Part shown: positions 10,654 through 26,262 of the stretch, one piece after another
Layout: every line of letters begins with the position of its first letter
Numbering within the stretch: the stretch's first letter is position 1
DNA from: Candidatus Hydrogenedentota bacterium
GTDB lineage: Bacteria > Hydrogenedentota > Hydrogenedentia > Hydrogenedentales > JAGMZX01
DNA: 64,000 nt
NCBI GenBank assembly: GCA_029556545.1
Contig: JAKQEQ010000084.1
Span: 1 to 64,000, forward strand
Direction of reading: 5' to 3'
Translations under genes and position numbers: made by a program
The notes under the pieces: model-generated
The model's database searches: none
What the model saw: the letters and a program-made list of their open reading frames with translations, nothing else
What the model was told of the DNA's origin: nothing

Positions 10654-11922
10654 CTAATCTCCGGTCCCGATTTCCGCGAACGAAAACCGGATCAGCCGGT
10701 CGAACAGCGGCGTCTTTCGCACCCGCCCTATCTTTTCTCTGTCCCCCCAGTCCGGAACGTACTCGAACTCCAACAATCCAAATCCTTCTAGAGGGTTGAC
10801 GATTCTCGTTACCGTGACGAGTTCGGCGAGAAACAGGCGGTCGGCCGCCACCAGCGTGTCATAGAGCATGGGCAAGAGCACGCGGCGCGGCACGTCGTCC
10901 TTGTCGACCCAGTCATTCAGTCCCTTGTGAATCGCGTAGAGCGAGTAATTGACGCCGTCCTGAACGTCATCCTCGACCGCGCACCGATCAAGATACGCCA
11001 AGGAAAACTTCGAGAAAAACGTGCGAAAGAGAAGCAGATACAACTCGACCGCGGCCGTGTCGGCCATCAACCGCTGGCCTTTCTTAGTAACCGAGAAGTG
11101 GCCCCGTTGCAGGCGAATGAGTCCCGCCAACTCCAGGACGACGCGGACGATATGGGCGGGACGCACCTCGAATTCGTTGATAACCTTGCAGAATTTCCGC
11201 AGGTCCTCGATATAGCCCTCGCGGTACGCCAGCGCATCTATCAGTTCCGCCACAAAGGCCCGGTTCAGGTTCTTGGAGGTGGTCGCTTTCACCCGTTCGC
11301 GCGAGTCGATTAGACGCAGCATGCGCCGCGCGTTCTCGGCAAACACCGCGTTCGACACTTCATGCGGTTCGAGATCGGCATTGATCCTGATGATCCCCTC
11401 CGGACCGTCGATAGACGTCGACATCAGCGCAAAGAACTGCATCCGAGACAGCCCCGCCAGTTCATCTATCGGCGCCTGCGCCGCGGCGGCCAATTCCTCC
11501 CTCGCGGGCAGTCTCCTCTCCCGCCTCGCTCGTCCGGTCCGCTCAACCACTTCGTCCCGCCAAGGATGGCCCACAGAGCCGGGTTCGACCTCCGCGCCCT
11601 CCTCGATGTCCCCCTCCCCCTCCTCCTCGACGAGCCCGTCGCGCCGCAAATTCTCTTCCAGTATCCGAAGACTCCTCGCCACCAGTCCCCCGAAGTGCTT
11701 CCGCTGGTTCGCGCCCGGCGCGGTCTCCGACAGCGTGAAGAAACAATCCACCAGTTCCGCCGCGTCGTCAGGCGTCAGCCGGCATACAAGCACCCCGTCC
11801 TTGATCAACCCAAAACGCATGTTTTCCCGCAGTTCCGGTGACGGGGAGGCGTGCTTGAGGACGTAATCGCGGTCCGCCACCGTAATCTTCAGTAGTATCA
11901 CCCGATCATCCAAGACGCGCAT
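10654..11922 (-). CDS. Uncharacterised 422-aa protein with a winged-helix-like C-terminal half
   Basis: I do not recognise this protein as a named family. The N-terminal 80 residues are a mixed region. Residues about 95-145 are low-complexity, acidic then basic. The C-terminal half is helical and contains a winged-helix-like stretch (VRVVLELAGLIRLQRG, then FSVTKKGQRLM), followed by LLFRTFFSKFSLAYLDR. Such helical modules are, from memory, sometimes fused to pRiA4b ORF-3-like domains; that resemblance is tentative. No signal peptide or membrane segment is visible. GGAGG directly abuts the ATG at 11922, which is too close for good initiation. The TTG at codon 4 (11913) has ideal spacing and may be the real start. 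A DNA-binding or adaptor role is possible but unproven. Confidence 0.6.
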   Translation of the reverse strand: MRVLDDRVILLKITVADRDYVLKHASPSPELRENMRFGLIKDGVLVCRLTPDDAAELVDCFFTLSETAPGANQRKHFGGLVARSLRILEENLRRDGLVEEEGEGDIEEGAEVEPGSVGHPWRDEVVERTGRARRERRLPAREELAAAAQAPIDELAGLSRMQFFALMSTSIDGPEGIIRINADLEPHEVSNAVFAENARRMLRLIDSRERVKATTSKNLNRAFVAELIDALAYREGYIEDLRKFCKVINEFEVRPAHIVRVVLELAGLIRLQRGHFSVTKKGQRLMADTAAVELYLLLFRTFFSKFSLAYLDRCAVEDDVQDGVNYSLYAIHKGLNDWVDKDDVPRRVLLPMLYDTLVAADRLFLAELVTVTRIVNPLEGFGLLEFEYVPDWGDREKIGRVRKTPLFDRLIRFSFAEIGTGD

Positions 11923-12020: not shown

Positions 12021-14000
12021 TCAGCCCTCCGGCGTTGCCCGTCCCTGGTCCTTATATTGCAGCTCGTAAAGGGTGCGATACAACCCGCCGATCGCAAGAA
12101 GTTCCTGGTGCGTGCCCATCTCGCGGATCCGTCCGTGATGCATCACCACGATTCGATCGCAATGCTGGATCGTGCTGAGACGATGCGCGACGACAATCGA
12201 GGTGCGGCCCGCCAGAAGCTTGTTGATGGCGTCCTGAATCAACGCCTCCGTTTCCGGGTCCACGTTCGAGGTCGCCTCATCGAGGACCAGCACGCGCGGG
12301 GCGTGGGCGAGCGTCCGAGCAAAGGCGAGCAGTTGCCGCTGGCCCGTCGAGAGATTGCACCCCCGCTCCCCCACGCTGTAGTTGTAGCCGCCGGGTAGCC
12401 GCTCGATAAAGCGCGCGGCGTTCACATGGGCCGCACACCGCCTCACGATCGCGTCGTCCATGTCCCGATCGCCCAACCGGATATTGTCCGCAATCGTGCC
12501 CGAGAAGAGGAACACGTCCTGGAGCACGAGGCCGATGTTGCGCCGTAGCGAAGCCTGCTCGTAGTCGCGCACGTCCACGCCGTCAACGCGGATCGCGCCC
12601 TGGGTCACGTCATAGAACCGGACCAGCAGACTGATCAACGTGCTCTTGCCCGCGCCCGTGTGGCCGACGACGGCGACCCGCTCACCGGGGGCGATGTGGA
12701 GGTCGATGTCATCAAGAACCAGTCGGTCCGAATCGTAGGCGAAGGAAACGTGGTCGAAATCGACCTGGCCCAGCAACGGACTCGTTGCCGCCGGTCTCCC
12801 CATTGTTGTGGCCGGTCTCCGGACCGAGCCACCATCCCGACCGCAGGTCTCCAACATCTGCTCCTCGACGGGCGTGGGAATGGAAAGCCGGGCCGCGCCG
12901 GGGCGATCCTGGATGTCCGGCGGGGTATCGATGAGCTGAAAGACGCGCTCGGAGGAGGCCATCGCTTCGAGCAGCATGTTGTACCGGTCCGCCAGCGCGC
13001 GAATGGGCCCGAAAAAGCGCTCGGCCCAGAACACGTAACTGAAGAGCGTACCCACCGAGGCGACCCCGGAAACCGCAGCGCCGGTGCGCAGGAATTGAAC
13101 GCCGCAGTAGAGAATGATTAGAGAGACGGAAAGGGCGCTGAGGAAATCCACCGCGGGAAAGTAAAGTGCGAAATTGCGCACCTGCCGAAACCATTCGTCG
13201 CGATGGTCCGCGTTCTTCTCATCGAACGCCTCGAAACAGGCAGGCTCGCGGCGGAAAAGTTGCACAACCCGCATGCCGCTGATCGTTTCCTGCATGTAGG
13301 CGCTGAACCGCGCCACTTTCCGGCGAATCTCGAGAAACGAGCGCTGCGCGTACTTCCGGAACACGGCGCTGGTCGCGAGAATAAGCGGCACCGGGCTGAG
13401 CGCGATCAAGGCGAGTTGCCAATTGATGGCGAACATGAAACAGAGAATGGCAAGAAGCGTGAGCAAATCGCTCGCGACGTCCACAACGCCCGATACAATG
13501 GTCTGCTGGATGCGCTCAACGTCATTGGTCACGCGCGACATGAGCCGCCCCACGGGATGGCGGTCGAGAAAACTGAGGGACATCTCTTGCAGATGTTCAA
13601 ACAGGCCCACGCGCATATCGAGCATCGTGCGCTGTCCCACGTAGGACACGATGACCAACTGGATATACCGGAGCACGGCCTCGATAACCACGAGCGCCGC
13701 CAGGATAAGCGTCAATTGAAACAGCCTGTCCATGCTTGCGGACGCCCCCGCGTCCGAGACGTCGACACCCTCTAGAACACCGCCTACGTCGCCCTTGGGC
13801 GCACCCGCAATGTAGCGGTCGACGGACCACATGATGAGCAAGGGCGTGATGTTGCTGATGACCGCGACCACACAGAGCAGCGCGACGGCGAACAGCATCC
13901 ACCGGCGATACGGCCGGATATAGCGCAGAAGGCGGCGCATGAGCCGAGCGTCATAGGCGCGCTGCGGCGCATCGTCTTCAAGATGGTAGCCTTCGCTCAC
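12021..14000 (-). CDS. ABC exporter half-transporter, canonical-Walker-B subunit
   Basis: This is a 659-aa fused membrane domain plus ATPase of the multidrug/lipid exporter type. The N-terminal part carries about six membrane segments. The C-terminal ATPase has Walker A VGHTGAGKST, signature LSTGQRQLL, Walker B VLVLDEATSNVD with the catalytic Glu, and switch VAHRLS. The non-canonical LSTGQ signature combined with an intact Glu is the pattern of one subunit of heterodimeric exporters such as TM287/288 or YheI/YheH. The partner is the adjacent gene. The start is the GTG at 14000, overlapping the upstream stop by 4 nt (GTGA). An apparent upstream extension to 14279 is antisense-like and rejected. 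The linker between membrane and ATPase domains contains an in-frame copy of a dispersed repeat (12803-12852). Confidence 0.92.
   Translation of the reverse strand: MSEGYHLEDDAPQRAYDARLMRRLLRYIRPYRRWMLFAVALLCVVAVISNITPLLIMWSVDRYIAGAPKGDVGGVLEGVDVSDAGASASMDRLFQLTLILAALVVIEAVLRYIQLVIVSYVGQRTMLDMRVGLFEHLQEMSLSFLDRHPVGRLMSRVTNDVERIQQTIVSGVVDVASDLLTLLAILCFMFAINWQLALIALSPVPLILATSAVFRKYAQRSFLEIRRKVARFSAYMQETISGMRVVQLFRREPACFEAFDEKNADHRDEWFRQVRNFALYFPAVDFLSALSVSLIILYCGVQFLRTGAAVSGVASVGTLFSYVFWAERFFGPIRALADRYNMLLEAMASSERVFQLIDTPPDIQDRPGAARLSIPTPVEEQMLETCGRDGGSVRRPATTMGRPAATSPLLGQVDFDHVSFAYDSDRLVLDDIDLHIAPGERVAVVGHTGAGKSTLISLLVRFYDVTQGAIRVDGVDVRDYEQASLRRNIGLVLQDVFLFSGTIADNIRLGDRDMDDAIVRRCAAHVNAARFIERLPGGYNYSVGERGCNLSTGQRQLLAFARTLAHAPRVLVLDEATSNVDPETEALIQDAINKLLAGRTSIVVAHRLSTIQHCDRIVVMHHGRIREMGTHQELLAIGGLYRTLYELQYKDQGRATPEG
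12803..12852 (+). repeat. Dispersed repeat family 1, copy inside a coding sequence
   Basis: This copy begins TTGTTGTGGCCGGTCTCC and contains the hairpin CGGTC-TCCG-GACCG. Related copies lie intergenically at 31814-31852 and 44663-44710. Here it is read in frame within the ABC subunit and encodes a Gly/Arg/Pro-rich insertion in the domain linker, a position that tolerates extra residues. Adjacent CCGGTCTCCCC at 12791-12801 may be a partial second unit. Confidence 0.75.
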
Positions 14001-15778
14001 GCTTCTTCTTCCAGGGCTTTTTCGAGCAGTTGCCGGCGGTACATGGCCGCGTAGAGACCCGCGCGCGCCACAAGCGCGGCGTGATCCCCTGTCTCCGCGA
14101 CCTGGCCGTCCTCGAGGACCACGATGAGGTCCGCGTCCCGCACCGCCGAAATCCGGTGCGAAATGATGATGCTGGTGCGAGTCGCCATGACCGCGCGCAA
14201 ACCGTGCAGTATGCGTTCCTCGGTTTGCGTATCGACGCTCGACAACGCGTCGTCGAGAACAAGAATGCACGGCTTGCACAAGATCGCGCGCGCCAGGGCA
14301 AGCCGCTGCTTCTGGCCTCCCGAGAGGTTGATGCCCCGTTCGCCCAGGAGCGTGTCGTAACCCCGCGGCATCTCCGCCACGTCGGCCGCGAACTGCGCGA
14401 TTTCACAAGCCTGACGCATCTCGTCTTCAGTGGCATCCGGCCTGCCGAGCAGCAGGTTGTGCCGGATGCTGTCGGAAAAGATGAACGTGTCCTGCGGCAC
14501 ACAGCCGATCGCCTCGCGCAGCACCGCCAGCGGAATTTCACGCAGGTCCGTTCCGTCGATACGAATGCGGCCCGCGGTCGGGTCGTACTCGCGCGTGATC
14601 AGCGCCACCATCGTGCTCTTTCCAGAACCCGTGGGGCCCACTATCGCGACCGTGGCGCCGGGCGCCACATCCACCGAGACGTTATCGAGCACAGCCGCGC
14701 CGTCGTAGGCGAATGAAACGTTTTCGAAGCGAATCGCGCCCCGTGCGATGCGCGCATCCCGACGGACTCCCGCCTCGTCCCGGATATCGGGCGTGGCCGC
14801 AAGCACCTCGCTGATCCGGTTCATCCCGACGGCGCCGCGCTGATACAGCGTCAGTACCCAGCCGAACTGCGCGAGCGGCAACGCGAGCATGATGACGCAA
14901 ACCAGAAACGCGGTCAGGTCGGCAAGCCGCAACGACCCCTCGAGCACGAAGCCGCCGCCGCGCCAGATAATGAGCAGAATCGCGCCGCCGAGGAGGATTC
15001 CGATGAGCGGCCATGCAAAGGACGTCACCGCCACCAGGCGCAGGTTGTCGCGCATGTATTTCTCGGCTTCCTCACGAAACCGGGCCACCTCGCGATCGGC
15101 GATGCCGTGCGCCTTCACGACGCGCGCGCCCGCCAGATTCTCCTGCACACGGGCGGTAATCGCGCTGAATTGCTCCTGCACGACCCGGGACTGGCGCTGC
15201 ATGTAACGCACGAGAAAATAGACCGCCACCGATAGAAACGGCAACGGAATCATGGCGATCAACGTCAGCTTCGCGCTGAGATAGATCATCATGCCCAGAC
15301 TCACCGGCACGCGCAGCATGTCGATGGTGTACATGACGCCCGGCCCGATGAAGTCGCGCACGAAATTGATGTCGTTCGTCGCGCGCGCCATGATGTCGCC
15401 CGTGCTCGTCCGGTTAAAGAACGCGCGGGACAACGTCAGCACCCGGCGGTAGTAGTCGTTGCGGAGGTCGTACTCGAACTTGCGCGAGGCGTTGATCATC
15501 AACGTGCGTTGAAAATACCGACCCACCCCCGCAATCACGAACACGCCCACGAGCCCCCCCACAAGCCCGCCTAACCGTCCATAGGTTATCGCGCCGGACT
15601 CGAAGGCCCCCACAACGCCGCGCACCACAAGCGGCATGACCGCGCCAAGCGCGGCATGGAGCAAGGAAAGCGCGGCCCCGCCCGCATACTCGTTCCAATA
15701 GGGCCGATTGTAGCGCAGCAGTGATAGGAACGGCTTCCCCGGCGCGGCTGCGGACGATAGGGCGGCGTGCGGCTTCAC
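13997..15778 (-). CDS. ABC exporter half-transporter, degenerate-Walker-B subunit
   Basis: This is a 593-aa fused permease/ATPase with the canonical exporter layout. The first membrane segment begins around residue 25 (GGAALSLLHAALGAVMPLVV). The ATPase domain has Walker A VGPTGSGKST, signature LSGGQKQRLALARA, and Walker B LVLDDALSSVD, in which Asp replaces the catalytic Glu, then the switch IISHRIS. Asp at this place is typical of the degenerate site of heterodimeric exporters and complements the neighbour, which has Glu but an altered signature. The GTG start at 15778 overlaps the stop of the kinase gene by 4 nt (GTGA), and its own stop overlaps the next gene in the same way. The three genes should therefore be translationally coupled. 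The transported substrate is unknown. Confidence 0.92.
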   Translation of the reverse strand: MKPHAALSSAAAPGKPFLSLLRYNRPYWNEYAGGAALSLLHAALGAVMPLVVRGVVGAFESGAITYGRLGGLVGGLVGVFVIAGVGRYFQRTLMINASRKFEYDLRNDYYRRVLTLSRAFFNRTSTGDIMARATNDINFVRDFIGPGVMYTIDMLRVPVSLGMMIYLSAKLTLIAMIPLPFLSVAVYFLVRYMQRQSRVVQEQFSAITARVQENLAGARVVKAHGIADREVARFREEAEKYMRDNLRLVAVTSFAWPLIGILLGGAILLIIWRGGGFVLEGSLRLADLTAFLVCVIMLALPLAQFGWVLTLYQRGAVGMNRISEVLAATPDIRDEAGVRRDARIARGAIRFENVSFAYDGAAVLDNVSVDVAPGATVAIVGPTGSGKSTMVALITREYDPTAGRIRIDGTDLREIPLAVLREAIGCVPQDTFIFSDSIRHNLLLGRPDATEDEMRQACEIAQFAADVAEMPRGYDTLLGERGINLSGGQKQRLALARAILCKPCILVLDDALSSVDTQTEERILHGLRAVMATRTSIIISHRISAVRDADLIVVLEDGQVAETGDHAALVARAGLYAAMYRRQLLEKALEEEA

Positions 15779-18700
15779 GGCTGCGACTTCGCGCCCTCCG
15801 ACGTCTCGAAGCCCTGTACCAGCGCCACCAGGTCTTCGCTCTTGAACGGCTTCAACAAGTAGCCGTCCGCCCCGGACTCCTGGATCTGCTCCAACGTCTG
15901 ATCCACCGCCTTCGCCGTTACCAGGTACACCTTCACGCCGGCCAGCGCGCGGTCCCCCTTGATCCGCGCGCACGTATGCCATCCGTCAAGACCCGGCATC
16001 GCGATATCCAGCAATACGAGCCAGTACTCCCCCGTGGCCACCAACGCGAGCGCTTCCTCCCCGCTCGAGCACTGGTCGACAACGTACCCCTCCGGTTCCA
16101 GACATCGCCGGATGAACATGCATATTTCCTGATCGTCATCCACCGTCAATATCTTGTATCCCAACTGCTCTCCGGCCGCCACGCCTTTGCTCAGCGCATA
16201 ATGGATGCCGCTCAGCAGCGTGCTCCGCCGGAAGCCGCGCTTGATGCGTCCGGCCACGGCATGACGATACCGCGCATAAAGCTGGTCGTCATTGGTGATC
16301 AGAATCACCGGAATGTCCGCCGCGGACGGGTCGGAAAGGATGTCTTCGAGCACGACGCTGCCCAGCGGACCCGCCTGCGTGTCGACCACCATGCAATCCG
16401 GACTGTACCGGTTCACCAGCGTCACCGCGGCCGCGGGATATGCCGCGTGAATGATGTCCATCCGTTCGGACAGCAGCATGTTGCGCACCTGCGCGCTCAA
16501 CGCCCGGTCCTGCGTGACAAGACACACCAGCAAGTGCGTCTCCGTCGGCAGCGGCAGCGCCGCCCCTTCGACCGGCGCCGCGGCGCGCCCTGTCCCGCTC
16601 AACGGCAGCGTGAAATGGAACACGCTGCCCTTCCCTTCCTCGCTTTGCGCCATGATGCGGCTTCCGTGCAGCCGCATAATGTCCTGGCTGATGGACAACC
16701 CGATCCCCGTGCCGCCGTACTTCCGGGTCGAAGAGGCGTCATACTGATAGAAGCGCGTGAATATCTTGTCCAGGGCCTCCTTCGGAATACCGATGCCCGT
16801 ATCGCTCACCAAGGTCTCGACATTGTCCCCCCGCACACGGATGTCCACGGACACCTGCCCCGCCGGCTTGTTGAATTTCACCGCGTTCGACAACAGGTTG
16901 TTGAACACCTGCCCGAGCTTCCCCTTGTCTCCCTCGACGAGCACCGGTTCCGCAGGCGCGTTCAATTGCATCGTGATGCCCCGACTGTCCGCCACCGGCT
17001 GGACTATCTGAATGCTCGTCAGCGCGCAGTCGACCAGATCGAAGGTGTCGAAAACGAGTTCCTCCTGACCGCGATGCAGGCGCGAGAAGTCCAGAAGATT
17101 CTCGATCAACGTCACGAGTTTCTCGACGTTGCGCAAGCTGATCCCGAGATACTCCCGCTGCGTATCGTTGACCGGGCCCGCCTTCCCATTGAGGATCATG
17201 TCGGTATAGCCCATAACCGCCACCAACGGCGTGCGCAACTCATGCGACACGTTTGACAGCAGGTTCGTCTTCATCTCGTCGAGCGTCTTGAGTTCCTCGT
17301 TCACGCGGTGCAGTTCCTCCCGCGCGCGCGTCACCTCGTCAAGCGAATGCTGGAGATTCTCGAGAAGAACGGCGTTGCGGATCGCCACGGCGACGTGCGG
17401 CGCCATTTGCTCCATGACCTCGATATCGTGCGTCGTAAACGCGCTCACCTGCTCCGCACCGAGGTTGAGCGAACCGATGATGCGCTCGTTCGCGTGCAGC
17501 GGCGTGCACAGGCAACTCGACACGCCCGGCGGAAACTGCTCCACAAACGCCGGGCGTTCGGACGCCAGTTCGTTCACGATCAGCGTGCGGCCCTTCCGCG
17601 CGACCCAGTCGGCGCACGAGTCGCCCTCTTCGCGACGGACAACTGCGGCCCCGTCGTGCGGCTCGGGCCACAGTTGGCGCGTCTCGAATCCGTCGTGGTC
17701 GTCTCGGCGCAACGACACCGACGCATAGTCGAATCGCACAACCTTGCGCAACTCGCCGACGATGCTCTCGTAGACGCGCCCAGCCTCGAGGCTCGAGTTA
17801 ATGACATTCGCAATCTGGTTGATCGCGCTGATGCGTTCGGATCGCTCCCGCGCCTCCTGTTCGAGCCGGACGCTGCGCGTAACGTCGCGAAAAGCGCCCT
17901 CCATACCCAGAATCGTTCCGTCCTGGCTTTCGATCCGATTGGACGTGATTTCAACGCAAATCGCCTGGTCGTCCCGGCGGCGCATCCACACGCGCGTCCG
18001 CTCGATATATCCGCGCCGCGCCAGCTCGCGCGTAGCGCGGGCGAAGTCGCCTTCTTCAACAAAGAATTCCTTAAGGTGCCTGCTCATCACCTCATCGACC
18101 GATCGAAAACCCAGAATCTCGACGCCCGCCGGATTCATGAAGAGAATGCACCCGGCGGGATCGGTCTGGTAGATGCCGTCGCGCATCGAGTTGATCAGGC
18201 TGCGATACTTCTCTTCCGAGTCCTCGAGCTGCTTGATGTTGCGGCGCAATGCCGACGCCATCTCGTTGAACGAATTCGCGAGTTGCTCGATCTCGTCCCC
18301 CGTGCCGATCTTGAGTTTCAGCTCATAATCGCCCTGCTTGATGATTTGCGCGCCCTCGTTCAGAAGGGACACGGCGCGGATGATGTTGTTGTGAACGTTG
18401 CGATAGGCCACGATGCAGAACAGCGCAATCACGATCACGCTGACGACGAAACTGATGACGGCGGCGAGGTTGATATTGGCGAACACCGCCATGCGCGGAC
18501 GGTAGACCACAATGAAGATGTCTCTGTTGGGCATGAGCCGGTGGTACGCCATGAGCGCGTGCGTGGTTCCGCCCCGGGATCGATAATTCCAGATAGTGAA
18601 GGAATCGGAGTCCTTCTCATCGTTTCCCAGCCGCTCCGCAAGCTTACTGTCCACCGATCCGTCCACGATCGGCGTCACCTTGGCGTTGGGGTCGCTGGGG

Positions 18701-19404
18701 TCCACCCCCGCGTCGAGATACGCCGTCGCGGAGTACAGGTCGCTCAAGTACACTACTTCATAAATGTCCGAACTCCCGACGAGCGTCTCCTCGTGAGCGC
18801 CCTGGCGCAGCACGAACCGCAGCAGATCTTCCACGCTCTGGTCGTCGGCGATGAACCCTATCGTCGCGCCGCCGGGTGCAGAAACAGGGGACACGATACG
18901 CGCCTTGTATCCTGTTTCGCTTGGGGTCGCAAACAGATTCTTGAACTCGATTCCCGAGATTTCACCCACCCACTCAGGATGCTGCGCGTCCAGCGGGGAT
19001 ATTTCGGTGGTGCCGACGATGTGGCGGCCGGACGCGTCAAACAAGTGGAACTCGGACTTGAGGTCGACGGCCCCGGCAACCTCGTCCAGGAGTCGGCTGA
19101 GCACCGCGTCCCGGTCAACGGGATCGCCGCGCCGGGCCCTTTCCAGCGTCTCGAGGACCACCGGATCCCGCGACAGCCGCACCACGCCCCGCTGGCGCCC
19201 TTTAACGGCCAACTGGACGCCTTGCGCGGTCTTCGTCGCAGCGGTCATCAGATTCTGTTGAACCGCGATCCGCTGGCCCTCATGGGCCACGAAATACCCG
19301 AGCACCAGGGCGATGGCCATGGGGATGACCCCCACCCAGAGGATGGAAGTCAGAATGCGGCGTTCGATGCTGCGCCGGGCCATCTTCTTGCGCGCGGTTT
19401 TCAT
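15775..19404 (-). CDS. Hybrid sensor histidine kinase (sensor-HAMP-PAS-GAF-HisKA-HATPase-REC-REC)
   Basis: The 1,209-aa membrane kinase has a first membrane segment at about residues 17-38, an extracytoplasmic sensor to about 310, and a second membrane segment at 312-336. HAMP (to about 390), PAS (395-515) and GAF (535-690) follow. The HisKA box NVSHELRTP carries His721. HATPase has FNNLLSNAVKF, DTGIGIP and GGTGIGLS. Two receiver domains end the protein. The first (about 955-1065) is partly degenerate, with Asp1008 present but only one obvious acidic residue at the phosphorylation pocket. The second (about 1083-1200) is complete, with VDDD, LLDIAMP (Asp1133) and Lys1185 region LLKPF. ATG at 19404 is used; an ATG at 19383 is an alternative. 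It is coupled to an ABC exporter pair, so it may sense the exported compound or its effect. Confidence 0.92.
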   Translation of the reverse strand: MKTARKKMARRSIERRILTSILWVGVIPMAIALVLGYFVAHEGQRIAVQQNLMTAATKTAQGVQLAVKGRQRGVVRLSRDPVVLETLERARRGDPVDRDAVLSRLLDEVAGAVDLKSEFHLFDASGRHIVGTTEISPLDAQHPEWVGEISGIEFKNLFATPSETGYKARIVSPVSAPGGATIGFIADDQSVEDLLRFVLRQGAHEETLVGSSDIYEVVYLSDLYSATAYLDAGVDPSDPNAKVTPIVDGSVDSKLAERLGNDEKDSDSFTIWNYRSRGGTTHALMAYHRLMPNRDIFIVVYRPRMAVFANINLAAVISFVVSVIVIALFCIVAYRNVHNNIIRAVSLLNEGAQIIKQGDYELKLKIGTGDEIEQLANSFNEMASALRRNIKQLEDSEEKYRSLINSMRDGIYQTDPAGCILFMNPAGVEILGFRSVDEVMSRHLKEFFVEEGDFARATRELARRGYIERTRVWMRRRDDQAICVEITSNRIESQDGTILGMEGAFRDVTRSVRLEQEARERSERISAINQIANVINSSLEAGRVYESIVGELRKVVRFDYASVSLRRDDHDGFETRQLWPEPHDGAAVVRREEGDSCADWVARKGRTLIVNELASERPAFVEQFPPGVSSCLCTPLHANERIIGSLNLGAEQVSAFTTHDIEVMEQMAPHVAVAIRNAVLLENLQHSLDEVTRAREELHRVNEELKTLDEMKTNLLSNVSHELRTPLVAVMGYTDMILNGKAGPVNDTQREYLGISLRNVEKLVTLIENLLDFSRLHRGQEELVFDTFDLVDCALTSIQIVQPVADSRGITMQLNAPAEPVLVEGDKGKLGQVFNNLLSNAVKFNKPAGQVSVDIRVRGDNVETLVSDTGIGIPKEALDKIFTRFYQYDASSTRKYGGTGIGLSISQDIMRLHGSRIMAQSEEGKGSVFHFTLPLSGTGRAAAPVEGAALPLPTETHLLVCLVTQDRALSAQVRNMLLSERMDIIHAAYPAAAVTLVNRYSPDCMVVDTQAGPLGSVVLEDILSDPSAADIPVILITNDDQLYARYRHAVAGRIKRGFRRSTLLSGIHYALSKGVAAGEQLGYKILTVDDDQEICMFIRRCLEPEGYVVDQCSSGEEALALVATGEYWLVLLDIAMPGLDGWHTCARIKGDRALAGVKVYLVTAKAVDQTLEQIQESGADGYLLKPFKSEDLVALVQGFETSEGAKSQP

Positions 19405-19690
19405 CCTACGGACTCGTCTCTGGCGGCTGCCCCTCGTGCTCCCGACCCCGGGCCGGCACAACCGAGCGGGGCGACAGCGAACAGAAGTCTTGGCTGTCCG
19501 CCCGTCCCTCACTCAGTATAGCGTGGAATGGCCACAGCGCACCAATCCGCTTTTCGTGACCCGCTTCGCCACCGACAAAGCCCGACGCCCGTCCCGGCTT
19601 GCCTGTGAAGCCCGCATCCTGTCAGGATCAGGCGCTCCTTTATCCCCGGGAGCGGTCCCGAGGGATTGGCGCGGAAGGCAGCGGGTCGGC

Positions 19691-22267
19691 ATGCCGGGAC
19701 AAACACCGAAAAACGAACTTCGTGGCGAGACCGCGTTGCGGCGGATTACGCCCGACGCCGTCGAGCACATGCGCGAGGCCATCGCGGAAACAGGCGGTCG
19801 CGAAGTGTTCTTCGCGGGGACCCTGGACCCGACGGGGCGCGTGTTTGAGGTGCGGGTCTGCGCGCGCGGCACCGAGGCCGCGGTCCCGGCGCTATTCGAG
19901 GGACTCCGCGTGCGCGACGTGGTCCTGCACAACCACCCGTCCGGGGGACTCGAACCAAGCGACGCGGACCTCGAACTGGCCTCGGTATACAGCGCGCACG
20001 GGCACGGCGTCTTCATCGTGGACAACGCGGTAAGCCGCGTCTACGTGGTGGTCGAGCCCTTCCTGGCCCAAGACGCCGAGCCGTTGGACCCCAAAGAACT
20101 GGCGCGGTTCTTCCGGCCAGACGGAAAACTCGCGCGGACGCTGCCCCATTTCGAGGTGCGCCCGCAGCAGGCCGAGATGATGGACGCCGTCGCCCAGGCG
20201 TTCAACCATGACGGCATCGCGGCGATCGAGGCGCCCACAGGGGTCGGGAAGACCGTGGCCTATCTGCTGCCCGCGGCGCTCTGGGCGGTGCGCAACAAGG
20301 AGCGCGTGGTCGTCTCGACCCGGACCATCAACCTCCAGGAGCAGATCGTCCACAAGGACATCCCGCTGCTTCAGCGATGCCTGAAGGAGAAGTTCACCAG
20401 TTGTCTCGTGAAAGGCCGGGGCAACTACCTCTGTCTGCGCAAGCTGGAACGACTGCTCTCCGAGGCCTCGCTGTTTGACGACGCCGGTCTGCGCGCCCAA
20501 ATTCAGGCACTCGTGGAGTGGGCCGGGAACACGACGGAAGGCGACCGGGAGGACCTGCCCTTCGTCCCCGAACGCGACCTGTGGGACCGCGTGTGCTCCG
20601 AGTCCGACACCTGCGCGATGGGGCGCTGCCCCGACCAGCAGAAGTGTTTCGTAACCCGCGCGCGCCGCCAGATCGCGAAAGCGGACATTCTGGTGGTGAA
20701 CCATCACATGCTCTTCGCCGACCTCGCGATCAAGAAGGAACTCGGCGACTTCTCCGCCCTCTCCGTGCTCCCCTCCTATCAGCGCCTGGTCTTCGACGAG
20801 GCGCACAGCATCGAGGATTCCGCCACCGAGTACATGGGCGCGAACGCGACCCGCCTGGGCGCGCTGGCCACGCTCGGTCGGTTCCTCCGCGCCGAGCGCG
20901 GCCAGGAACGCGGCCTCATCCCGTTCCTGCGCCTGAAACTGGTCAAGGAATGCTCCCAACTTGGGATAGACCAGTTCGAGGTGATCCAGCGGATCATCGA
21001 GCAACAGATCCTGCCCGAATTGGCGCTTGTGCGCGAGACCTTGGGTGCGGTATTCGACGCTCTGCGCGCGCTCGCGGCGGCCAAATGCGGCCAGATCGGC
21101 CGCGAAATCAAGTGGCGGCTCACCCCGGAGATCTTGCGGGACCCCGAGGTGCGCGCCGTCCATGCGGAACAGGTCGCGCCCGCGGTCGAGGCCGTGTCAA
21201 AGCTGGTGCAGTCGTGTACGGCGCTGCTGCGGCGCTTGCAGGCGATCCCCCCCGACCCCGAAGCCAAAGCTTCGCCCATCGAACTCGAAATGCTCCAGTT
21301 GAGCGCCTACACAAAGCGGCTCGAACGCCTGGCGCTGGTCTTGGCCGAATCAACCAGCGAAGAACTCGCCGAGAACACGGTGCGCTGGATCGAAATTGAC
21401 GCGGAGAACGCGAATTTCGTGCGCGTCGCCCGGTGCCCGCTCGAAGTGGGCAAGCCCATGGCCGACTGGCTCTACGGCAACCTCAAGACGGTCGTTATGA
21501 CTTCCGCCACATTAACGGTGCGCCGCGAGTTTGATTACCTCTTCGGGCGGCTGGGACTTGACCTGGTCCCCCGCGACCGTGTGCAGGCCGCCTGCCTCGA
21601 TACGCCGTTCGACTTCGGCGATCAGGCGCTGCTCGGCATCATGACCGACTTGGTCTCCCCGAGTGAGAAGGGATTCCTGGAAGAGTCCGTCGGCGCGGTC
21701 CGCGAAGTCCTGCGCGCCACCCGGGGCCACGCCTTTGTCCTGTTCACCTCGTTCTACGCCCTCGACTTCACCTACCGGCGGCTGCACGAGGAACTGCGCG
21801 CGCAGGGTATTACGCCGCTAAAGCAAGGCGAGGCATCCCGCACCCAACTCCTCGATCGATTCCGGATCGACGCCGCAAGCGTCCTCTTCGCCACGGACAG
21901 CTTCTGGGAAGGCGTCGACGTTGCCGGCCGCGCGCTGCAGTGTGTTATACTCCCTCGGCTTCCGTTCCGGGTGCCCACCGAGCCCGTCCTCGAGGCCCGC
22001 GCCGAAGCCATCGACGCCCGCGGCGGCAACTCGTTCCTGAGCTATTCCGTTCCTCAGGCGGTCATCAAATTCCGGCAGGGCTTCGGACGGCTCATCCGCC
22101 GCCGTACGGACCGGGGGGCGGTGGTCGTGCTCGATTCGCGGATCGTGACCAAGTACTATGGCCGCATCTTCGTGGAATCACTCCCGCGCGCGCGGATTGT
22201 TCGGGGCGCGCGCAAGGAAGTGCTCCACGCTTTGAACCGATTCTTCGAATCGGTTCGAGAGGACTGA
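19691..22267 (+). CDS. DinG/XPD-type iron-sulfur helicase with N-terminal RadC-like JAB domain
   Basis: The 858-aa protein starts at ATG 19691. Residues 1-120 form a JAB/MPN-type domain with the RadC-type motif HNHPSGGLEPSDAD (His80, His82, Asp93), spaced identically to the motif in the separate RadC of this window. Residues 150-858 form a superfamily 2 helicase. It has Walker A APTGVGKT (Lys187) and DEAH at 369-372. Four cysteines at 248, 308, 313 and 319 have the C-X4-C-X5-C spacing of the DinG iron-sulfur cluster. C-terminal helicase motifs include FATDSFWEGVDVAG and FGRLIRRRTDRG. It probably unwinds DNA 5' to 3' with damaged or RNA-containing substrates. The JAB domain may be a metallohydrolase, but its substrate is unknown. 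The stop lies 5 bp before pgi. Confidence 0.9.
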   Translation: MPGQTPKNELRGETALRRITPDAVEHMREAIAETGGREVFFAGTLDPTGRVFEVRVCARGTEAAVPALFEGLRVRDVVLHNHPSGGLEPSDADLELASVYSAHGHGVFIVDNAVSRVYVVVEPFLAQDAEPLDPKELARFFRPDGKLARTLPHFEVRPQQAEMMDAVAQAFNHDGIAAIEAPTGVGKTVAYLLPAALWAVRNKERVVVSTRTINLQEQIVHKDIPLLQRCLKEKFTSCLVKGRGNYLCLRKLERLLSEASLFDDAGLRAQIQALVEWAGNTTEGDREDLPFVPERDLWDRVCSESDTCAMGRCPDQQKCFVTRARRQIAKADILVVNHHMLFADLAIKKELGDFSALSVLPSYQRLVFDEAHSIEDSATEYMGANATRLGALATLGRFLRAERGQERGLIPFLRLKLVKECSQLGIDQFEVIQRIIEQQILPELALVRETLGAVFDALRALAAAKCGQIGREIKWRLTPEILRDPEVRAVHAEQVAPAVEAVSKLVQSCTALLRRLQAIPPDPEAKASPIELEMLQLSAYTKRLERLALVLAESTSEELAENTVRWIEIDAENANFVRVARCPLEVGKPMADWLYGNLKTVVMTSATLTVRREFDYLFGRLGLDLVPRDRVQAACLDTPFDFGDQALLGIMTDLVSPSEKGFLEESVGAVREVLRATRGHAFVLFTSFYALDFTYRRLHEELRAQGITPLKQGEASRTQLLDRFRIDAASVLFATDSFWEGVDVAGRALQCVILPRLPFRVPTEPVLEARAEAIDARGGNSFLSYSVPQAVIKFRQGFGRLIRRRTDRGAVVVLDSRIVTKYYGRIFVESLPRARIVRGARKEVLHALNRFFESVRED

Positions 22268-22272
22268 GATTC

Positions 22273-23649
22273 ATGGACGATGCCATTCGTATCGACGCAA
22301 CCCGCGCGCTGTCGAGCGCCGTGGGCGAGGCACACGGGGTCGCCGAGGCGGAACTGGACGCCATCGCCCCGCGCGTGCGCCAATTGCACGGAATCCTCGC
22401 CGAAGAGCGCGCAACCGCGAAATACGGCTTCTACGACCTCTACAAAGACACCGACGTCATCGATCGCGTCAAGGCGGAGGCGGATCGGTTTCACGCGATG
22501 GGTTACGAGAACCTCGTGGTGCTCGGCATCGGCGGTTCCGCCCTCGGCTTGACCGCCCTCCACACCGCGCTCCACCCGCCGTACTACAACTTGCGCGACC
22601 CGAAGGCGCGCGACGGGCGGCCCCGGCTGTTCGTCATGGACAATATCGATCCGACGACCTTCGCACAGATGATGCGGCTGTGCCCGCCCGAGAAGACCCT
22701 GTATAACGCTATCTCGAAATCGGGCGAGACCGCCGAGACGATGCTGCAACTGCTCGTGATCATCGAACCGCTCGAACGCGCCATGGGCAAGGACGGCGTG
22801 AAGGATCACCTCGTCATCACCACGAGCCCGGACCGCGATCGGGTTCCCAATGCACCCATAAGTCTGCTACGACCGGTGGCGAAGAAATACGGCCTGACGG
22901 CCTTCGATATCCCCGTGAACGTCGGAGGACGCTTCTCCGTCTTCTCGCAGGTCGGGATGTTTCCCGCCGCCGTCCTCGGACTGGATATCGACGGCATGAT
23001 GGCCGGCTGCGCGGCCATGGACGCCCGGTGCGGCCAACCGGATTTGCACGCGAACCCCGCCTACTTGCGCGCCGCCCTGCATTATCTCCTCGATACCCGC
23101 AAGGGCAAGACGATATCGGTCATGATGCCTTACGCGGACGGCCTGCGCAGCGTCGCCGACTGGTACTGCCAACTCTGGGCTGAGAGTCTGGGCAAGCAGT
23201 ACGACCTGGACGGCAAGAACGTCTTTGCCGGTCAGACGCCGGTCAAGGCGCTGGGCGCCACCGACCAGCACTCCCAGGTCCAACTCTACCGCGAAGGCCC
23301 CAACAACAAGGTATTCAATATCGTCGAGGTCGCGGAGTTCAGCGAGACCCTGCCCGTGCCGAACACCCTGCAATGCGTGCCGGAACTCGAATACCTACGC
23401 GGCGCGACCATGAATAAGCTTATGGCCGCGGAGTTGCAGGGAACAGTGGACGCCCTTACGCTGAGCAAGCGGCCCGTCATCCGCGTCACGCTGCCGCGTC
23501 TCAACGCCGGTACCGTGGCGCAACTCCTTTACATGCTCGAAGTCGAGACCGCCATGGCCGGGCGCTTGTATCACGTCAATGCGTTCGATCAGCCCGGCGT
23601 CGAGGAAGGCAAGCGCATCGCGCGCGAACTCATGGGAGCCGACTGTTGA
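22273..23649 (+). CDS. pgi: Glucose-6-phosphate isomerase
   Basis: The 458-aa phosphoglucose isomerase interconverts glucose 6-phosphate and fructose 6-phosphate in glycolysis and gluconeogenesis. Visible family signatures include LGIGGSALGLTAL for phosphate binding, AISKSGETAET, the NVGGRFSVFSQVG signature, and an ATDQHSQVQLYREG stretch near the active site. The length fits the shorter bacterial type. ATG at 22273 lies 5 bp after the helicase stop. A longer in-frame extension upstream overlaps the helicase and is rejected. The last codons overlap the TTG of the following membrane-protein gene (TTGA), so the helicase, isomerase and membrane-protein genes probably share a transcript. The combination appears to be positional rather than functional. 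Confidence 0.95.
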   Translation: MDDAIRIDATRALSSAVGEAHGVAEAELDAIAPRVRQLHGILAEERATAKYGFYDLYKDTDVIDRVKAEADRFHAMGYENLVVLGIGGSALGLTALHTALHPPYYNLRDPKARDGRPRLFVMDNIDPTTFAQMMRLCPPEKTLYNAISKSGETAETMLQLLVIIEPLERAMGKDGVKDHLVITTSPDRDRVPNAPISLLRPVAKKYGLTAFDIPVNVGGRFSVFSQVGMFPAAVLGLDIDGMMAGCAAMDARCGQPDLHANPAYLRAALHYLLDTRKGKTISVMMPYADGLRSVADWYCQLWAESLGKQYDLDGKNVFAGQTPVKALGATDQHSQVQLYREGPNNKVFNIVEVAEFSETLPVPNTLQCVPELEYLRGATMNKLMAAELQGTVDALTLSKRPVIRVTLPRLNAGTVAQLLYMLEVETAMAGRLYHVNAFDQPGVEEGKRIARELMGADC

Positions 23650-25400
23650 GTCACCCCGAGATCGAGGAAGCATTACCCTCCGATCGGTCCGGAAAACCGG
23701 GGGACTCCATCGGCGCGCGCCGCATCCGGCACGCGTTCCGCTTCGCCGTACTGGCGTGCGTCGTCGCCACCCTCACGCTGTGGTTCGCCGAGAACTACCT
23801 CCGGTACCCGAAACCCGAGCGACTCTACCGCATGGCCCTCCTGCATGAGGATGACTCGGCGCGCGCGTTATTGCGCAACCTGGTTCCGAAGGACGACGAG
23901 ATTCCGCAAGACCCGCGATTCGGAACCTATCTGGCCGCACTCGCGTTCATCGAGGACGGCACATGGGAGCGGCAACGACAGGGCATCTACGAGTCCTACG
24001 CGGTCGACCCCCTGGTCATCGAGCGCTACGAACAGGCCCTCGGCGCGGACAAGGAAAACCCTTTCATCCTGACGTTGTTCGGCTGTGCGCTCTTTCTTGA
24101 CGGTCAGTACACACGCGCGCGCGACGTGTTTCGCGACGCACGCCGCTTCACCCCCGCGGAAGACGCGTTGCCCGCGTATCTCGAAGCGGCGGCGCGCGCG
24201 CACCTCGGTGAGATGGGCGAAGCCCTGAGCCTTATCCGGCAGACCAGCGGCAACCCCGCAATGCGCATTCACATACCCGAGCCCCTTTGGCACCCCAGTC
24301 TGCCCCGTCAAGGTATGTGGTACGCCCACGTCCAGCGCCGACTGACCGAGCGCGTCCTCGCGCCCCTCGTCGCGCTCAAGAACCTCGTCTGCTCGCGCGC
24401 GGGACGCCACGCCCCCGAGTCCCCCGCCCCGAACACACCCACGCAGGATGCCGGAGGAGGCGCGCAACCCGCCTTCGACAAGGAAGCATGGCTTCAGGAG
24501 GTGGAAACGCTGGGACGCCGCCTGCTGGCCGTCCCGCCCAGCGCGACCGGGGCGGGCGCGGCGCAGGTCGACGCGACGGTCGGCGAGAGCATCGCCCGGA
24601 CACTGACCACGCTGCAAGCCCGACTGAGCCTCACGTTCCAGCAGGAGGCCCTGCGCCTGCGCTTGCAGAGTGTCTCATTGCCCGCCGCGGACCGCGAAGC
24701 CGCCCGCCGCCGCCTGCAACTGATCGAGGACGCCCAGGCACAACTCCAGGCGTTCGACGAGACGCGATCCGAACGGGTACTGCAGCACGCCGTGGTCGTG
24801 AATCGGCCCGGAGTCCTCTGTTTCCAGACGCTCGCCGCGTGCCTCGCGGCCTACGCCCTGGCATACCTCCTCGGCAAGCTGCTCCACGCCGGACGCACAG
24901 CCTGGGCCGTGCCCCATCCCTCTTGGGTGCTCGCGAGTCTCGGCGCGGTCTTCCTCCTGCTGCTTCTCATCCTGCTGACCCTACTGCTCATCGGCAGCGT
25001 CACACGCCAGCCGGGCGCCTGGCTTGACGGCTGCTCCTACGCGTGGTACGGGCTCGTCGCGTCCCTCATGCTTGCCGGGCTCGCCTATCCGCGGCTGCTG
25101 CTGCGCCGCGCGACGACCGGCCCGTCGCCGTCCCACGACTCCGCGCCCGAGCCCCCATCGCGCACGGCATCCCCCGCCGTCCGCGGCGATACCCGCGCCT
25201 ATGCTGGCATGTTACGCCGCTATTACGGCATGCTTGCGGCCACTTTCCTCGTGTTCCTCTGCGTGTACGCCATCGCACACCGCCTGATCACCGGTTTGTA
25301 TCCGTTTATCCACGCAAAGCTTCTTATCTCCGGCCTCCAGCAGGAGGAACTTGACCTCGTGCTCCGCGTGCGGTTCCTGCTCGATGGCGCCATGTTCTAG
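23646..25400 (+). CDS. Uncharacterised membrane protein with a TPR-like N-terminal region
   Basis: I do not recognise this 584-aa protein as a named family. The TTG start at 23646 overlaps the pgi stop (TTGA), indicating coupling. One hydrophobic segment at about residues 34-53 is followed by a soluble region whose helical pattern around 100-210 (ALGADKENPFILTLFGCALF, then ARDVFRDARRF) is TPR-like. A Pro/Ala-rich linker and a helical, possibly coiled-coil stretch at about 280-385 come next. Four membrane segments fill the last 200 residues. The soluble domain's side of the membrane cannot be fixed. It could be a scaffold in the envelope. No catalytic motif was found. Confidence 0.75.
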   Translation: MSHPEIEEALPSDRSGKPGDSIGARRIRHAFRFAVLACVVATLTLWFAENYLRYPKPERLYRMALLHEDDSARALLRNLVPKDDEIPQDPRFGTYLAALAFIEDGTWERQRQGIYESYAVDPLVIERYEQALGADKENPFILTLFGCALFLDGQYTRARDVFRDARRFTPAEDALPAYLEAAARAHLGEMGEALSLIRQTSGNPAMRIHIPEPLWHPSLPRQGMWYAHVQRRLTERVLAPLVALKNLVCSRAGRHAPESPAPNTPTQDAGGGAQPAFDKEAWLQEVETLGRRLLAVPPSATGAGAAQVDATVGESIARTLTTLQARLSLTFQQEALRLRLQSVSLPAADREAARRRLQLIEDAQAQLQAFDETRSERVLQHAVVVNRPGVLCFQTLAACLAAYALAYLLGKLLHAGRTAWAVPHPSWVLASLGAVFLLLLLILLTLLLIGSVTRQPGAWLDGCSYAWYGLVASLMLAGLAYPRLLLRRATTGPSPSHDSAPEPPSRTASPAVRGDTRAYAGMLRRYYGMLAATFLVFLCVYAIAHRLITGLYPFIHAKLLISGLQQEELDLVLRVRFLLDGAMF

Positions 25401-25529: not shown

Positions 25530-25559
25530 TTGACAATAGGGCTGCGACTGCTGTACAAT
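25530..25559 (+). promoter_or_regulatory. Promoter for the HTH-receiver gene
   Basis: TTGACA at 25530-25535 and TACAAT at 25554-25559 are separated by 18 bp. Transcription would start near 25566 and leave a leader of about 110 nt before ATG 25675, which has AAGGAG at 25660-25665. The near-consensus boxes suggest strong constitutive expression. Confidence 0.65.
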
Positions 25560-25674
25560 ATTGGCAAACGGCGCAAAATGTGAATTCCTGCATCGCGCGC
25601 CACCCCACAAGACCGTTGTGCGTTAGAGATTGCGCTGTTAGGGGCCAGTAGTCACTACGAAGGAGAATGAGAAA

Positions 25675-26262
25675 ATGGCTGGAGACCGCGAACAAAAGGC
25701 GTTCACCACCTTCGAGGCAGCGAAGATTTGCCATGTCACGCACCACAGCATCAAGAACTGGATCAAGCAGGGCCTGATCAAAGCCTCCAGAACCCCCGGC
25801 GGCCATTACCGCATTCTCGAAGAAGACCTCGACCGCTTCCGCGAGAAGTACGACATGTTCCCCCGCGAAAAGGGTCCCGTCAAGCGCCGCATCATGATTG
25901 TCGATGACGACCCCGACGCCCTCGCCCTGATGGAGAAGATTCTCAACGACGAGGGATTCGAACTCGTCAAGGTCAGCAACGCCACCGAGGTCGGCCTCAA
26001 GGCCGCACAGCTCACGCCGGACCTCATCCTCCTCGACTTCCTCATGCCGGAGATCAACGGCTTCGAAGTCTGCAAGGCCCTGCGCGACAACGACATGACC
26101 CGCAGTATCCCCATCATGGCCGTCACCTGCCTCACCAAAGAACGCGACATCGAACGCATCTTCGCCTGCGGCGCCGACGAATACCTCGCCAAACCCTTCA
26201 AGGTCGACCAACTCCTCGACAAGGTCAAAGAACTCATCGGACGCGGCCGCGCCATCGATTGA
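25675..26262 (+). CDS. Excisionase/MerR-type HTH fused to a response-regulator receiver domain
   Basis: The 195-aa protein has an N-terminal winged HTH of the excisionase/BldC type (residues about 8-60, including FTTFEAAKICHVTHHSIKNW and RTPGGHYRI). A complete CheY-like receiver occupies about 70-190: IVDDDPDA acidic pocket, LILLDFLMPE phosphoacceptor, and YLAKPFK with the conserved Lys. The order is the reverse of most response regulators, in which the receiver comes first. A good ribosome site (AAGGAG, 9 nt spacing) and a consensus promoter precede it. No kinase gene is adjacent. The nearest is the hybrid kinase ending at 15775, and a link is only inference. It probably binds DNA in a phosphorylation-dependent way. 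Confidence 0.88.
   Translation: MAGDREQKAFTTFEAAKICHVTHHSIKNWIKQGLIKASRTPGGHYRILEEDLDRFREKYDMFPREKGPVKRRIMIVDDDPDALALMEKILNDEGFELVKVSNATEVGLKAAQLTPDLILLDFLMPEINGFEVCKALRDNDMTRSIPIMAVTCLTKERDIERIFACGADEYLAKPFKVDQLLDKVKELIGRGRAID

Follow-up and report, generated by a model that had tools for sequence, protein, structure and literature searches.

Three genes coding for a hybrid histidine kinase and two ABC half-exporters (ABC1 and ABC2) probably form the distal part of an autoregulated two-component operon, which extends through the phylum Candidatus Hydrogenedentota and consists of a response regulator, a dCache hybrid kinase and, optionally, a TmrAB-like exporter. We put the probability of this reading at about two in three. 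The genes lie in the window, a stretch of 64,000 nucleotides from a Candidatus Hydrogenedentota genome (G000). An earlier, sequence-only reading of this DNA had described them as a self-contained sensing and export unit without a DNA-binding regulator. Comparison with relatives showed that the linkage between kinase and exporter is real and old, but also that a regulator with a helix-turn-helix and a receiver domain (HTH-REC) is encoded next to the kinase in nearly all of them. This corrects the tempting assumption of a kinase wired straight to the exporter, the transcription-factor partner having moved only in the genus of the window. In its manner of working the system resembles a two-component system that has a transporter encoded alongside. 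It gives this uncultured phylum a sensing system which is nearly universal and single copy, and which comes with a precise predicted operator.

Table 1. Features of the locus (positions in the window)
Feature	Position	Strand	Remarks
ABC half-exporter 2 (ABC2), TmrA/YheH-like	12021..14000	-	GTG at 14000, stop ends at 12021; 659 aa
ABC1/ABC2 GTGA overlap	13997..14000	-	4 nt
ABC half-exporter 1 (ABC1), TmrB/YheI-like	13997..15778	-	GTG at 15778; 593 aa
Kinase/ABC1 GTGA overlap	15775..15778	-	4 nt
Hybrid histidine kinase	15775..19404	-	ATG at 19404, stop TGA 15777-15775; 1209 aa
Terminal receiver of kinase (REC2)	15778..16167	-	D1089, D1090, D1133, T1163, K1185
Degenerate receiver of kinase (REC1) and linker	16171..16593	-	REC1 at residues ~960-1070; residue alignment, hhalign
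Periplasmic dCache sensor domain of kinase	18490..19290	-	AlphaFold model, PDB matches, Pfam in orthologues
DinG-like helicase, glucose-6-phosphate-isomerase-like (PGI) and TPR-like genes	19685..25400	+	moved with the regulator as a single inverted block
Promoter of regulator gene	25530..25559	+	TTGACA-N18-TACAAT; 11/12 matches; no better promoter match in this region
Predicted operator, 9-bp tandem direct repeats	25566..25589	+	conserved across the phylum
Response regulator, probable cognate of the kinase	25675..26262	+	195 aa; N-terminal BldC/MerR-like HTH_17, C-terminal REC

Gene order of regulator and kinase

The comparison set consisted of 68 genomes of Candidatus Hydrogenedentota, 38 of them of high quality. 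At the thresholds used, the kinase was detected in 64 of the 68 genomes and in all 38 high-quality genomes; the regulator was present in 38/38 of the latter, and both were almost always single copy. Of the 54 genomes with regulator and kinase genes on one contig, 52 had the regulator immediately upstream of the kinase. (Among these, 51 were recognized automatically by distance; the other is G003, where only part of the kinase had been matched and the complete gene adjoins the regulator.) Gene order and single-copy co-occurrence suggest that the two proteins are a cognate pair. The only exceptions to the adjacency were the window genome and its congener G001.

In the window, the regulator gene is 6.3 kb from the kinase and on the opposite strand. 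In many relatives the DinG, PGI and TPR genes adjoin the operon on its upstream side, and here the block DinG-PGI-TPR-regulator is inverted relative to the kinase. The kinase, ABC1, ABC2 and the two next genes moved together; the gene order of G001 is related to that of the window but different. The apparent lack of a DNA-binding regulator was thus the result of a genus-level rearrangement. Because the regulator was moved and inverted, kinase and exporter of this genus would be on a different promoter and the regulator would act in trans. The sequences upstream of the kinase in G000 and G001 did not contain the regulator promoter element described below. Since synteny reaches the DinG, PGI and TPR genes in many families, adjacency alone is no proof of function.

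The regulator and its promoter

The HTH occupies residues 10-58 of the regulator and the receiver residues 73-185, an order which differs from the N-terminal-receiver layout of the OmpR, NarL and NtrC types. Across families the protein was 76-91% identical to the window copy, most of residues 8-63 were invariant, and the receiver residue D121 was invariant in 17 sequences. Homologues with 29-43% identity occurred in Deltaproteobacteria, KSB1, Acidobacteria and others; the neighbourhoods of these distant homologues contained no matching ABC pair, and either a different kinase or no matching kinase. The HTH domain matched HTH_17 and, by phmmer, the BldC structures 6amk (E 0.0047) and 6ama (E 0.02). 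BldC is a MerR-like protein of Streptomyces whose protomers occupy 9-bp direct repeats in head-to-tail arrangement (PMC5859096).

Applied to the sequences that precede the regulator gene, expectation-maximization yielded one strong element (log-likelihood 350 versus 73-80 in shuffled sequence), situated approximately 10 nt after a TATAAT-like box. The element had a period of 9: in 20,000 column shuffles its score was never attained at this period, and at any period between 6 and 12 it was attained in 0.005% of them. The repeats of the predicted operator read AAnnTGnGc / AAAcTGcGA / ATTnTG. When the 68 genomes were searched with a model combining the box and the element, all 43 matches at E<=0.035 were upstream of the regulator gene. 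They included genomes outside the model (G052, G053, G061, G063, G066, G067 and G042), and in G061 the upstream region of a second regulator copy matched as well. The same search gave no other convincing regulon sites, matches at E>0.1 being mostly in AT-rich genomes; because the model includes the -10 box and its training set consisted of regulator promoters, weaker or differently placed sites could be missed.

Since the HTH resembles BldC, and BldC binds 9-bp direct repeats, head-to-tail binding of the regulator to the element is plausible as a prediction. The likeness comprises the BldC-like winged HTH, the tryptophan corresponding to Trp31 and the 9-bp tandem repeats of the predicted operator. 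There are also differences. BldC consists of the winged HTH alone, whereas here this domain is fused to a receiver; the BldC repeat AATTNNNNC differs from the repeat found here, and the BldC specificity residue Arg30 is Asn28 in the regulator. Among the interface residues of BldC only Trp31 was identical (W29), while Phe21, Leu43 and Arg30 corresponded to C19, P41 and N28, respectively, which counts against the two-component operon reading. The conserved element could also be bound by another factor, or have a role in the 5' leader RNA.

The kinase and the proposed signalling path

The kinase is composed, in this order, of TM1, the periplasmic dCache domain, TM2, HAMP, PAS, GAF, HisKA (with H721), HATPase, the degenerate REC1 and the canonical REC2. 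Pfam recognized HAMP, PAS, GAF, HisKA, HATPase and the C-terminal receiver. Two hydrophobic segments lie on either side of residues ~39-305, leaving a periplasmic domain of ~267 aa. Modelled with AlphaFold (pLDDT 85), residues 1-400 matched dCache receptors in the PDB, e.g. DvhD (9rc2, TMt 0.72) and rpHK1S (3lif, 0.64), and dCache_1 was recognized by Pfam in 11 of 43 kinase orthologues. H721, N840, D868, G870 and G900 were invariant in 51/51 orthologues. The hallmarks of two-component systems are present: the HisKA histidine and the N and G boxes in the kinase, the receiver aspartate in the regulator, and adjacent genes.

The sequence-only reading had spoken of a receiver at the end of the kinase and left REC1 unmentioned. 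This second receiver, placed between HATPase and the last receiver, was related to the REC domain of the regulator with 93% probability in an hhalign profile comparison; its acidic pair is replaced by T964/Q965, and the phosphoacceptor-equivalent D1008 is retained.

In the mechanism that we infer, the periplasmic dCache domain and the cytoplasmic PAS and GAF domains would set the activity of the kinase, which would govern the phosphorylation state of the HTH-REC regulator, most probably through direct transfer. A phosphorelay through an HPt protein was rejected: no stand-alone HPt was found in the window genome, where HPt domains occurred only in frames of 825-1099 aa. For this reason direct transfer from kinase to regulator is favoured, and REC1 and REC2 would be left as modulators. 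The regulator would bind, head-to-tail in the manner of BldC, to the 9-bp tandem repeats that closely follow the -10 box in its own promoter, and would thereby set the level of itself, of the kinase and, where present, of the exporter. The exporter, in turn, would remove a signal-related small molecule. The intact receiver at the end of the kinase counts against the two-component operon reading, as it is unneeded for simple transfer from a histidine kinase to a response regulator.

A more specific proposal is tentative, and we regard it as possible rather than probable: that these phylum-wide regulators, with a BldC-type domain before the receiver, are phosphorylated under control of the dCache kinase, that phosphorylation governs their head-to-tail assembly on the 9-bp repeats of their own promoter, and that the TmrAB-like exporter is an optional output. 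If the BldC-like regulator were controlled in this way, two-component signalling would be tied to BldC-type cooperative assembly on DNA. Neither this combination nor the kinase-regulator-exporter system was found described in a literature search which had most subscription journals outside its range.

The exporter pair and its linkage to the kinase

Each half-exporter carries ABC_membrane (PF00664) and ABC_tran (PF00005) in one chain. The ATPase sites are asymmetric, as the sequence-only reading had noticed. ABC1 has the Walker B motif VLDD, with Asp replacing the catalytic Glu, and a canonical LSGGQ signature, while ABC2 has VLDE and the altered signature LSTGQ. The split was maintained among orthologues, with LDD in ABC1 and LDE in ABC2; in the alignments LSGGQ was found in 36/36 complete ABC1 rows and LSTGQ in 19 of 22 ABC2 sequences. 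From these motifs, the degenerate ATP site is predicted to consist of the Asp Walker B of one half and the altered signature of its partner. The closest half-transporters of known structure were TmrB and then YheI (BmrC) for ABC1, and TmrA and then TM288 for ABC2; TmrA carries the canonical Walker B (review, PMC7756269).

The motif split and the nearest structures indicate that the pair fits the known heterodimeric exporters in which one of the ATP sites is degenerate; taken alone, the asymmetry is nothing unusual. The sequence features of that class were found: two distinct co-encoded halves, each with transmembrane and nucleotide-binding domains, one replaced Glu and an altered signature in the partner. 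As far as can be judged from the genes, ABC1 and ABC2 fit a TmrAB-like heterodimeric exporter which would assemble and export as such. TmrAB of Thermus thermophilus, BmrCD (YheI/YheH) and TM287/288 are likewise heterodimers with one degenerate site; in contrast to these, the pair described here sits behind a hybrid histidine kinase wherever both share a contig in the phylum.

At the thresholds used, ABC1 was present in 38 of the 68 genomes and in 20 of the 38 high-quality genomes. In the other 18 high-quality genomes, kinase and regulator were kept and the exporter was absent. The kinase therefore cannot serve the exporter only; the idea of a self-contained unit is not supported, and the lack of the exporter in nearly half of the high-quality genomes also counts against the two-component operon reading. 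As to synteny, the sequence-only reading was borne out: in all 34 genomes with kinase and ABC1 on one contig, representing most families of the phylum, the two genes were adjacent and on the same strand. They were on separate contigs in G005 and G016 (split by contig ends) and in G064. Homologues were mostly not scattered; only in G003 and G017 was the exporter pair unlinked to the kinase, and there it follows an IS-like remnant and a gene for an aldo/keto reductase. The ABC1 tree largely tracked taxonomic families, and exporter presence amounted to 9-13 changes on the kinase tree, a pattern which fits an ancestral exporter repeatedly lost. The exporter thus appears to be ancestral in the phylum.

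The repeated loss, the unlinked pairs of G003 and G017, and the synteny that the DinG and PGI neighbours also show in many families would agree as well with the exporter being a passenger. It would then be an ordinary exporter of the multidrug or lipid kind, functionally unconnected with the kinase and retained beside it through vertical inheritance and read-through. We consider this unlikely, as the linkage of kinase and exporter survived the rearrangement in the window genus, and as the order regulator-kinase-exporter is intact in a family with other upstream neighbours (f10; L078, L086).

The tight adjacency of kinase and exporter might also mean that the exporter is a transport sensor, read by the kinase, which then signals to the HTH-REC regulator. 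Sensing through a transporter has a precedent in BceRS-BceAB (PMC3023708), where a histidine kinase, a response regulator and an ABC transporter are likewise encoded together. However, Bce kinases are intramembrane-sensing and have no extracellular domain, whereas the kinase described here is a dCache hybrid with a large periplasmic domain of its own. The Bce transporter consists of a permease with an unusually large extracytoplasmic loop and a separate ATPase and is thus unlike the type IV half-exporters of the present system, whose membrane domain is of the PF00664 and not of the BceB type. The regulator differs as well, its HTH preceding the receiver. The dCache kinase and the different exporter class rule out membership in the Bce-type modules, and the persistence of kinase and regulator without the exporter makes such a role of the exporter quite improbable.

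Still less credit can be given to the idea behind the self-contained unit, namely that REC2, once phosphorylated, binds to the two ABC proteins and gates transport directly, transcription being unnecessary. It would account for the 34/34 adjacency and for the joint movement of kinase and exporter, without the regulator, in the window genus, but it is opposed by the existence of a dedicated DNA-binding regulator and by the retention of the kinase, its REC2 being intact in most cases, in 18 high-quality genomes that have no exporter. Acidic or phosphoacceptor residues of REC2 were altered in seven genomes, none with a detected exporter, as against D1089N in one genome with an exporter (p 0.04 by Fisher's test, with no correction for ancestry). 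In G049, one of the seven, the kinase lies at a contig end, and the association was gone when ancestry was respected (tree-aware pair sign test, median p 1). Because of this last result, REC2 decay in the absence of the exporter was not counted as evidence.

Gene junctions and flanking genes

The sequence-only reading had also stressed that kinase, ABC1 and ABC2 are joined by two identical GTGA overlaps. Both are present (Table 1), but only that between ABC1 and ABC2 was conserved, a 4-nt overlap being found in 29/34 genomes; at the kinase/ABC1 junction it occurred in just 10 of 34, and the spacing there ranged from overlap to about +190 nt. Since the latter junction varies in relatives, and short gene overlaps are frequent in the vicinity (e.g. 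23646-23649), the identity of the two overlaps is partly coincidence. The gene on the 3' side of ABC2 (10654-11922) matched no family in Pfam and NCBIfam and, among the loci compared, was present only in G000 and G001; the genes beyond ABC2 differed widely between relatives.

Receiver changes and the exporter

The terminal receiver of the kinase (residues 1089-1133) was altered in seven Hydrogenedentota genomes (G006, G027, G035, G038, G043, G044 and G049, the last with the kinase at a contig end), the changes being D1133E and/or D1090A/N/E. These changes were found only in genomes in which the exporter was not detected; the association was not significant after accounting for ancestry.

Regulator and neighbouring genes

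The promoter element of the regulator was divergent in the AT-rich family f6 (loci L049 of G006 and L051 of G013). In parts of family f10, at L185 of G047 among other loci, it was weak or not found.

Genes near the kinase, exporter and regulator
Feature	Position	Strand	Remark
422-aa protein	10654-11922	-	directly 3' of ABC2
DinG/YoaA-like helicase	19685-22267	+	RadC/JAB match in N-terminal stretch
584-aa protein	23646-25400	+	marginal TPR matches only

No Pfam family scored above the cut-off for the 584-aa protein, but its gene's place next to the regulator, on the upstream side, is conserved in many relatives. Among the loci compared, the 422-aa gene was limited to the window and G001, of the same genus, and its product had no match in Pfam or NCBIfam. 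The RadC/JAB match of the helicase (E 8.9e-6) exceeded the Pfam cut-off and, if real, would make this protein an unusual fusion.

Regulators of the Hydrogenedentota type (85-87% identical) were encoded on contigs titled Nitrospiraceae and Rhodothermaeota (L104, L130), assemblies that are likely mislabelled. At L144, L146 and L147 (KSB1, Tritonobacter) an HTH-REC regulator is directly followed by a different histidine kinase, with a 4-nt overlap in L146. This adjacency to other kinases suggests that HTH-first response regulators form a wider class extending beyond Hydrogenedentota.
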